This document shows positions 26,613 through 50,968 of a stretch of 52,584 bases of DNA, in pieces (position 1 is the stretch's first letter; the number at the start of each line of letters is the position of its first letter). The DNA is from Nitrospinaceae bacterium (lineage in GTDB: Bacteria > Nitrospinota > Nitrospinia > Nitrospinales > JACRGP01). The position numbers were made by a program, and so were the translations under genes. The stretch lies in NCBI GenBank assembly GCA_029261555.1, contig JAJDBB010000043.1:1-52584 (forward strand), given 5' to 3'. The notes beneath the pieces were generated by a model that was given only the letters and a program-made list of their open reading frames with translations, made no database searches and was not told the origin of the DNA.

Positions 26613-26735
26613 GGATTGACGCCAGCGTGGCGCTGGGCGGGCAACGCCCGCTGGAAAAGTTTGAGATGCAAGCGCACCCTAGCTTGCAACGTCACTCTAA
26701 CAGCTTCGCCTATACCGCCTGGTTAGAGTTCGGAT
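26613..26735. repeat. Short-form repeat before the TPR-cupredoxin gene
   Basis: Palindrome CCAGCGTGGCGCTGG (26622-26636), adjoining stem GCGGGC/GCCCGC (26637-26651), then CTGGAAAAGTTTGAGATGCA and AGCGCACCCTAGCTTGC. It abuts the stop of fmdB-like gene, whose last residues lie in its right end. Confidence 0.75.
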
Positions 26736-33407: not shown

Positions 33408-33531
33408 CCAGGCAAGCGCCTGGAGGCAGATAATGTAACGTTTCTGGAAAACGCTACGGGCAAAGGTGAGTTTGTATCTCAAACTCTTCTACCGGGCATT
33501 GCCCGGCCAGGCAAGCGCCTGGAGGCAGATA
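33407..33531. repeat. Short-form repeat flanked by perfect 26-bp direct repeats
   Basis: The 26-bp sequence beginning GCCAGGCAAGCGCCTGGAGG occurs at 33407-33432 and again at 33506-33531. Between them is the reverse-oriented body (TAATGTAACGTTTCTGG, GGTGAGTTTGTATCTCAAAC) and the palindrome CCGGGCATTGCCCGG. It begins at the last base of the porin stop codon. Confidence 0.85.
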
Positions 33532-45553: not shown

Positions 45554-45886
45554 ATGGATTCCGTTAAAAATCCAAAGTGCGTGGAGTGCGGCAAGGAAAC
45601 GGGACAGCGACCCACGTCTCTTGAATATCACGGTCAGGAGATTCATTTATTCGATCCGGTCGTTTGCCAACCCTGCCTGCTGGAATTGTGCGAAAAGTTT
45701 TCGGCCCCGTGCGCCAATTGCGACGAACCGATCCCTCCCTTTTCCATGGTCGGGGTTTTGAAAGCCGACGGCGGGGAAAAACAAATTGTGCACATGACGG
45801 AGAGTTGCCAGACCGTGGGAAGCGCGTTTCATGGCTATTGGGGCAAAGGCGAACTGCGTAAGTTTTTGGAGATTGAAGCGTGCTAA
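45554..45886 (+). CDS. Small Cys-rich, probably zinc-binding protein
   Basis: 110 aa. Three CxxC knuckles: CVECGK near residue 9, CQPCLLELC near 38 and CANCDEP near 53, then a lone Cys in TESCQTV and a terminal Cys. It looks like a zinc ribbon or treble-clef-type small protein; no named family recognised. Its last twelve codons, GELRKFLEIEAC plus stop, are duplicated as a 39-bp direct repeat at 45985-46023 across the inserted repeat element. Ancestrally its stop codon overlapped the start of the ferredoxin gene. Confidence 0.75.
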   Translation: MDSVKNPKCVECGKETGQRPTSLEYHGQEIHLFDPVVCQPCLLELCEKFSAPCANCDEPIPPFSMVGVLKADGGEKQIVHMTESCQTVGSAFHGYWGKGELRKFLEIEAC

Positions 45887-46023
45887 CCGGCGAGGCGCCG
45901 GAGCCAGTTAGCGTAACATTTCAGAGAAAATGTTCCGGGCAGGGGTGAGTTTTCAACACAAACTTTTCCACCGGGCGTTGCCCGGCGAACTGCGTAAGTT
46001 TTTGGAGATTGAAGCGTGCTAAA
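45848..46023. repeat. Repeat element flanked by 39-bp direct duplications
   Basis: Copy 1 (45848-45886) and copy 2 (45985-46023) are identical, starting GGCGAACTGCGTAAGTTTTT and ending GCGTGCTAA. Between them, 98 bp (45887-45984) of short-form repeat: CCGGCGAGGCGCCGG, AGCGTAACATTTCAG, GGTGAGTTTTCAACAC, and the palindrome CCGGGCGTTGCCCGG. Copy 1 keeps the 3' end of the Cys-rich gene; copy 2 provides GGAG and the GTG of the ferredoxin gene. Confidence 0.95.
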
Positions 46024-46327
46024 CGTTAAATTTATAGATTCCGAAGGCGCGGAATTGAAAACGGTTCAGGCGGAGCCGGGGAGCGACCTGCGGAAAATTG
46101 CCCAGGGCGAGGACCTGAACCTCTACCGCCACGTTTTCAAACTACTTAATTGTCGAGGCAAAGGTTTGTGCGGTTCCTGTCTCGTAGAAATAGAATCCGG
46201 CGACGCCGGGCCGCTCAGCGAAATCGAAAGCAAAAAATTGAAATCGAAATTATCGGACCGTCCCAACATTCGCCTGGCTTGCCAGGTAACCGTTGATAAC
46301 GACCTTGTGGTGAAAACCCAAGACTGA
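46016..46327 (+). CDS. 2Fe-2S ferredoxin, plant-type fold (copy 1)
   Basis: 103 aa from the GTG at 46016, which has TTGGAG 8-13 nt upstream. Beta-grasp ferredoxin with ligands C46, C52, C55 and C89, spaced C-x5-C-x2-C-x33-C (LLNCRGKGLCGSCLVEI, LACQV). Small soluble electron carrier. Its ribosome site and start codon lie in the second copy of the 39-bp duplication. Its closest relative in the window is the next ferredoxin, with ligands at identical positions. Confidence 0.9.
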   Translation: MLNVKFIDSEGAELKTVQAEPGSDLRKIAQGEDLNLYRHVFKLLNCRGKGLCGSCLVEIESGDAGPLSEIESKKLKSKLSDRPNIRLACQVTVDNDLVVKTQD

Positions 46328-46339
46328 CTTTCAAGAATG

Positions 46340-46415
46340 ATCGATAGGTTCGGATTCAAGTTGATAGAAATTTGTTCAATCGTCAACCGCCGGGTCCAGC
46401 GTCACGCTGGCCAGG
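46340..46415. repeat. Half repeat between the two ferredoxin genes
   Basis: CGATAGGTTCGGATTCAAGT, TTGTTCAATCGTCAACCG, then the palindrome CCAGCGTCACGCTGG (46396-46410). This is the left half in reverse orientation. Confidence 0.65.
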
Positions 46416-46435: not shown

Positions 46436-46753
46436 ATGCACGAAATTACTTTTACAAATCCCAAAGGCGACGTCCGGAGAGTCATTAAAGCCGAGCCGGG
46501 AGAAAATTTGCGCGAAGCGGCCATCCGCAACAAGTTTGGGATCTATCCCCACCTGTTCAAAATTCTCAATTGCCGGGGTCGCGGTTTGTGCACTTCCTGC
46601 GCTGTGGAAATCGAATCCGGCAATGCGGCCCCGCGCAACGAAGTGGAAGACGCCGCGCTAAAATCCAAGCTGGCCGGGAAACCTAACCTGCGGTTGGCCT
46701 GCCAAGTTGCGGTGGAAGACGATCTCATCGTCAAAACCCAAGGATCCTTTTAA
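46436..46753 (+). CDS. 2Fe-2S ferredoxin, plant-type fold (copy 2)
   Basis: 105 aa. Ligands C46, C52, C55 and C89 as in copy 1 (ILNCRGRGLCTSCAVEI, RLACQV), with about half the residues identical; both share IESG and the end VKTQ. Tandem duplication is likely, with a repeat inserted between. Retaining both suggests two electron routes or two partners. The ATG has GGAG 9 nt upstream. Confidence 0.92.
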   Translation: MHEITFTNPKGDVRRVIKAEPGENLREAAIRNKFGIYPHLFKILNCRGRGLCTSCAVEIESGNAAPRNEVEDAALKSKLAGKPNLRLACQVAVEDDLIVKTQGSF

Positions 46754-50875: not shown

Positions 50876-50968
50876 GCCCCCGGTGGAAAAGTTTGAGACG
50901 CCAAACTCACCCAAGCTCGTAGCCTAACCGAATATGTGCCGCTAATTGGATCCAGCGTCACGCTGGCT
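50876..50968. repeat. Short-form repeat before the SEC-C gene stop
   Basis: GCCCCCGGTGGAAAAGTTTG, AGACGCCAAACTCACCC, AAGCTCGTAGCC and the palindrome CCAGCGTCACGCTGG (50952-50966). It ends immediately next to the stop codon at 50969. Confidence 0.75.

Follow-up and report, generated by a model that had tools for sequence, protein, structure and literature searches.

Interruption of an overlapping gene junction by a short hairpin repeat flanked by 39-bp direct repeats in a Nitrospinaceae genome

The junction between a cysteine-rich gene and a 2Fe-2S ferredoxin gene of a Nitrospinaceae bacterium is split by a short hairpin element, which is flanked by two identical 39-bp sequences. We consider it probable that a short dispersed GC-hairpin repeat was inserted after the stop codon of the first gene of an overlapping pair, and that 37–39 bp of the target were duplicated. 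The insertion history is well supported, and we infer the enzyme or repair route. The junction is located in a window of 52,584 nucleotides, the whole stretch of DNA that was analysed, from a 129-contig draft genome (G000) that is about 86% complete and probably metagenome-assembled. The sole other sampled genome of the genus, the congener G001 (Nitrospinaceae isolate OFTM44, record JAJDBD010000096.1; junction at locus L032), is also about 86% complete. The junction was read in 29 relatives including the congener, and the order-level sample comprises 41 genomes.

The sequence GGCGAACTGCGTAAGTTTTTGGAGATTGAAGCGTGCTAA is present twice on the forward strand, at 45848–45886 and 45984–46022, with 39/39 bp identical and a spacing of 136. 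The two copies flank the hairpin element as the original prediction had stated. The DNA between them starts directly after TAA and measures 97 bp (45887–45983) rather than the predicted 98 bp. When the GG at 45984–45985 is counted to the element, the 3′ hairpin CCGGGCGTTGCCCGG is whole, the element is 99 bp long, and the duplication is 37 bp. Random pairings of the flanks of other copies nearly always scored 6–12, and the few higher values are attributed to element modules held in common. Since the random scores were this low almost throughout, the exact 39-bp repeat at a spacing of 136 is not due to chance.

The cysteine-rich gene (45554–45886, forward strand) encodes 110 amino acids without a Pfam match, and has relatives in 36 of the 41 genomes. 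Its last 36 nucleotides and stop codon form repeat copy 1, inside which a vestigial GTGCTAA overlap is preserved at 45880–45886; the sequence GCGTGCTAA carries both the stop and the GTG, an overlap of 7 nt. Repeat copy 2 holds the GGAG (46004–46007) of the ferredoxin gene, 8 nt upstream of its GTG (46016). The first ferredoxin-like gene (46016–46327, forward strand; 2Fe-2S, Fer2) encodes 103 amino acids and is mostly missing in the congener. The second (46436–46753, forward strand; Fer2) was judged by eye to be the nearest to the single ferredoxin of the relatives. A hairpin cassette, CCAGCGTCACGCTGG, lies between the two ferredoxin genes at 46396–46410. The ends of both proteins are unaltered by the insertion, as had been predicted.

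The element is non-coding apart from a 30-codon mini-ORF (45930–46022, forward strand), which starts at an ATG within the element and ends at the duplicated TAA. At the GTGCTAA of copy 2, the end of the mini-ORF overlaps the ferredoxin GTG as the cysteine-rich gene formerly did. The insertion may have uncoupled the translation of the two genes, as the original prediction proposed. Judging from this arrangement, however, the mini-ORF may re-create translational coupling to the ferredoxin, or may be a product of chance. An Rfam search of the junction returned a chance match only. When folded as RNA, neither the junction nor the element scored better than shuffled sequences (z of −0.30 and −1.42, respectively), and therefore we do not claim a special RNA. 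No promoter-like or terminator-like site was found at the junction.

The congener provides the empty site. Its junction (...GGCGAACTCCGCAAGTTTTTAGAGATTGAGGCGTGTTAAACGTTAAATTC...) contains a single copy of the 39 bp with 5/39 substitutions and lacks the element. When the two arms of the G000 sequence are aligned to this junction, they share about 42 bp of it, and the alignment runs through the single copy. The stop codon and the GTG overlap by 7 nt (GTGTTAA), within the 4–8 bp anticipated for such a site. The 7-nt overlap is retained in 20 of the 29 relatives, the congener and 19 more (ATGCTAG type), in agreement with the claim that the junction was originally overlapping. A second copy of the 39 bp is absent from all 29 relatives (best match 22/39), and accordingly none has both copies without the element, the arrangement named beforehand as contradicting the insertion. 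Because the overlap is kept in these 20 genomes and none has a second copy, sequence comparison gives good support to the reading that the single overlapping junction is ancestral and the G000 insertion derived. The congener junction itself is not untouched, since most of ferredoxin 1 has been lost from it; at 1827–1890 of L032, a 20-codon stub overlaps the ATG of ferredoxin 2, which comes directly after the lost gene.

The two copies in G000 are identical, as opposed to 5/39 differences from the congener, which shows that the insertion postdates the split from the sampled congener and falls roughly within the later part of that time. The event was predicted to be recent from the perfect identity of the copies, and to the extent of being younger than the split this holds. 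Beyond that, the case for a recent event is weak, because a newly inserted element would be expected to have an almost identical donor copy. No such copy was found in either assembly, about 14% of G000 being missing, and the nearest sibling copy in the two assemblies is only 82–83% identical.

The element (45887–45985, forward strand) belongs to a dispersed family with full-length relatives in G000 and the congener. A query with the 97 bp gave 45 matches in G000, and a query with the 99 bp gave at least 23 in the congener and only weak short matches in other genera. Copies open with a 5′ hairpin cassette, to which a particular linker belongs, continue with a core of about 60 nt, and close with CCACCGGGCGTTGCCCGG, which hardly varies. 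In the junction element, the 5′ hairpin CCGGCGAGGCGCCGG (45887–45901) directly follows the stop codon and is one of several interchangeable cassettes. The linker and family core (GTTAGYGTAACGTTT...GGTGAGYTTGCAACTCAAAC...CCA; 45902–45970) were delimited by an alignment of 50 full-length copies. The 3′ hairpin (45971–45985), whose final GG is common to repeat copy 2, is near-invariant in full-length copies. The 5′ cassettes of the family include CCGGCGAGGCGCCGG, CCAGCGTGACGCTGG, CCAGGCAAGCGCCTGG and others, and are followed by ACCCA, AGGCA, GGCCA or GGGCA. The exact 20-nt cassette CCAGCGTGACGCTGGACCCA occurs 25 times in G000 and is present in 27 of the 41 genomes of the order, with no occurrence of the reversed control.

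Alternative 3′ ends, tandem arrangements, and inverted arrangements also occur in the family. Locus L022 contains near-identical tandem cores carrying different 5′ hairpins, and in L134 four or more element-like units are arrayed in tandem with common GCCTCCACGGCGAGTGGCG junctions. At the orthologous sites L016 and L084 of two species, the element copy is in opposite orientation. Further copies or parts are present in the window at 33408–33506 (forward strand), 26638–26679 (reverse strand), and 50879–50966 (reverse strand); the one at 33408 begins directly after a TAG stop codon.

Long duplications are not typical of the family. We compared the flanks of 106 copies from G000 and the congener with random flank pairings, a survey that old duplications decayed beyond about 75% identity could escape. 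Abutting duplications of non-element sequence are present at two of the 106 copies, the G000 junction (39 bp, exact) and L153 in the congener (17 bp, TTTTATATATCCCTGTC and TTTTATAAATCTCTGTC, 15/17 identical). Because these are the only two, the family has no fixed duplication length and the 39 bp are an exception; the search for duplications of similar length at other copies, proposed with the original prediction, thus marks the junction as atypical of its element. The orthologue of the L153 site was sought in G000 and not found, and hence there is no empty site for L153. Among about 20 orthologous site pairs of the two genomes, most spacers are too divergent for an empty site to be read. The L006/L088 pair can be read; a 26-bp repeat there was considered as a second target duplication and rejected, because the repeat is a hairpin cassette that the congener already has, and insertion beside it explains the 26 bp. 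Direct repeats in L134, L159, L022, L025, and L008 were left out of the count, since they consist of element modules or arrays.

The position directly behind a stop codon recurs in the family. The 5′ hairpin could be recognised in 87 copies, and in ten of these the element begins exactly where an ORF of 70 codons or more has its stop, as compared with about 0.5 per other offset; two of the ten (L004 and L080) are orthologous, and the stop at L071 may be spurious. The placement may reflect either a preference of the element for such insertion sites or selection that favours hairpins at stop codons. REPs located 15 nt or less from stop codons lower translation in E. coli (PMC12306157), and by this analogy a stop-abutting hairpin may plausibly modulate translation or the stability of the mRNA in a REP-like manner.

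The junction of the cysteine-rich and ferredoxin genes is also split in eight relatives of another family, seven of them from the g4 genus (L036, L041, L042, L043, L044, L047, and L048) together with L057, with spacers of 94–264 nt where measured. In five of the eight, a hairpin of different sequence begins 0–1 nt after the stop according to a strict rule, for which shuffling gives an expectation of 8%; the other three look alike but fail the rule. Several of the spacers hold a conserved GAGTCCGGTATGAT-like stretch, a putative promoter.

We propose that a REP/BIME-like mosaic repeat of about 97–99 bp entered directly after the stop of the gene pair in a single Nitrospinaceae lineage that had already diverged from the sampled congener, and that 37–39 bp of the target were duplicated in the same event. 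The cysteine-rich gene would thereby keep its C-terminus and stop, and the ferredoxin gene would retain the same sequence upstream, GGAG and GTG included. The event would have taken a single step, either a staggered break in the target with subsequent filling of the gap or a template switch of equivalent outcome. The length of the duplication would be variable, as in Yersinia YPAL, and a duplication would usually be absent. Both genes would survive an insertion at their overlap only if the duplication were long enough to rebuild both ends. The rare long duplication may be seen at an overlap precisely because only a long one spares both genes.

Searches for a mobilising enzyme were negative. 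No Y1 transposase (RAYT) was found in G000 or the congener, both about 86% complete. The 86%-complete G000 also gave no match to reverse transcriptase (PF00078), IS1634-family transposase (NF033559), or Cas1, the control for which was positive in 9 of 14 genomes. RAYT-like Y1 proteins of about 320–330 amino acids are encoded in four relatives (L168, L169, L170, and L173), and no GC hairpins of this family lie within about 1.5 kb of these four genes with long open frames. The RNA-templated insertion suggested originally finds no support in the reverse transcriptase search of this 86%-complete assembly. It is true, as had been noted, that 39 bp exceeds the usual duplications of ISs and MITEs; however, the length alone does not demand an exotic mechanism, considering the 3–26 bp of YPAL and the 8–514 bp of IS1549/IS1634, and the exotic mechanisms put forward are neither needed nor shown.

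Since members of the family often show exchanged cassettes and inversions, the main rival is MMBIR-like replication template switching at GC hairpins, which we regard as possible and somewhat unlikely. The replication fork would stall after the stop, copy a hairpin element located elsewhere, and return 37–39 nt upstream at a GG match, so that no integrase would be involved and the repeat length would be accidental. Such a process would fit the mosaic copies with swapped 5′ cassettes, including the L022 tandem cores, the inverted element at the L016/L084 site, the variable 3′ ends, the turnover of spacers, and the 2-nt GG microhomology at the right junction. However, neither assembly contains a donor of more than 83% identity, and the repeated occurrence of full-length elements with well-defined ends speaks for a discrete mobile unit. 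We prefer insertion in one step, with a staggered break that is then filled, to template switching.

It is conceivable, although rather doubtful, that an undescribed Nitrospinaceae system moves interchangeable hairpin cassettes behind stop codons with highly variable duplications, and that another genus acquired its split at this junction in a separate event. If so, overlapping gene pairs could be invaded by hairpin cassettes without the loss of either gene.

Still less probable is a two-step history, in which the junction was first duplicated in tandem, or the element arrived before the 39 bp were copied by gene conversion. Conversion could maintain the identity of the copies, which is complete despite the congener differing at 5/39 positions. 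Nevertheless, no relative examined has two copies without the element, an insertion lacking a duplication would have taken away the ferredoxin start, and the borders of the repeats fall at the same positions as those of the element. An assembly artefact is very improbable. The junction was read here from the assembly alone, and the source is a 129-contig draft, but the element is a genuine member of its family and complete at both ends, the two genes are undamaged at their ends, and the DNA on either side agrees with that of the congener. A false join would need reads across both novel junctions. CRISPR repeat lengths include 37–39 bp, and off-target Cas1-Cas2 or casposon-like integration, in which duplications reach the length of a CRISPR repeat, is nonetheless barely credible given the negative Cas1 search of the 86%-complete G000 and the insert itself, which at 97–99 bp exceeds the length of a spacer and is one of a dispersed family.

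The junction represents a clean natural experiment, in which an operon junction with a 7-nt overlap, kept across the sampled order, was split by a non-coding repeat and both gene ends were copied. It allows testing whether the coupling by stop/start overlap matters for the ferredoxin, and by what means short hairpin repeats spread when no transposase is visible.

Bacterial MITEs such as Correia and RUP mostly have terminal inverted repeats, TA termini, and target duplications (PMC2229807). The Nitrospinaceae family resembles them in being small, non-autonomous, intergenic, and able to form hairpins. In contrast, the ends of the element are two different self-complementary hairpins, no pair of inverted repeats of at least 12 nt was found in 45600–46300, and the family lacks a fixed short target duplication. 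IS1549 and IS1634 produce long direct repeats of variable length upon insertion (8–514 bp; PMC2266710), to which the 39 bp are similar; however, these are full ISs with a transposase gene, and no IS1634-family transposase was found in the 86%-complete G000.

The resemblance to REP/BIME is closer, as the family consists of numerous short intergenic GC palindromes in mosaic or tandem arrays, located near the 3′ ends of ORFs and often close behind stop codons. REPs carry a GTAG or CGTC tag at one end (PMC3733652), which the Nitrospinaceae cassettes lack, and no Y1/RAYT gene was found in G000 or the congener at about 86% completeness each. The stop-abutting placement and the order-wide exact cassettes make the family a useful REP/BIME parallel outside the well-studied hosts. 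YPAL (RU-2) of Yersinia is a 168-bp repeat with target duplications of 3–26 bp, whose targets lie beside or span dyad symmetry (PMC2229807). Compared by description, both are short dispersed repeats with internal inverted repeats. Target duplications of variable size may be a further likeness, with 39 bp and an empty site here, 17 bp (15/17) without one, and none at other copies. The differences are the host phylum, the length of 97–99 bp as opposed to 168 bp, the predominance of copies without a duplication, and the longest duplication of 39 bp. The family is best read as a short repeat of REP/BIME-like and YPAL-like character, whose insertion brings about a target duplication of variable length.
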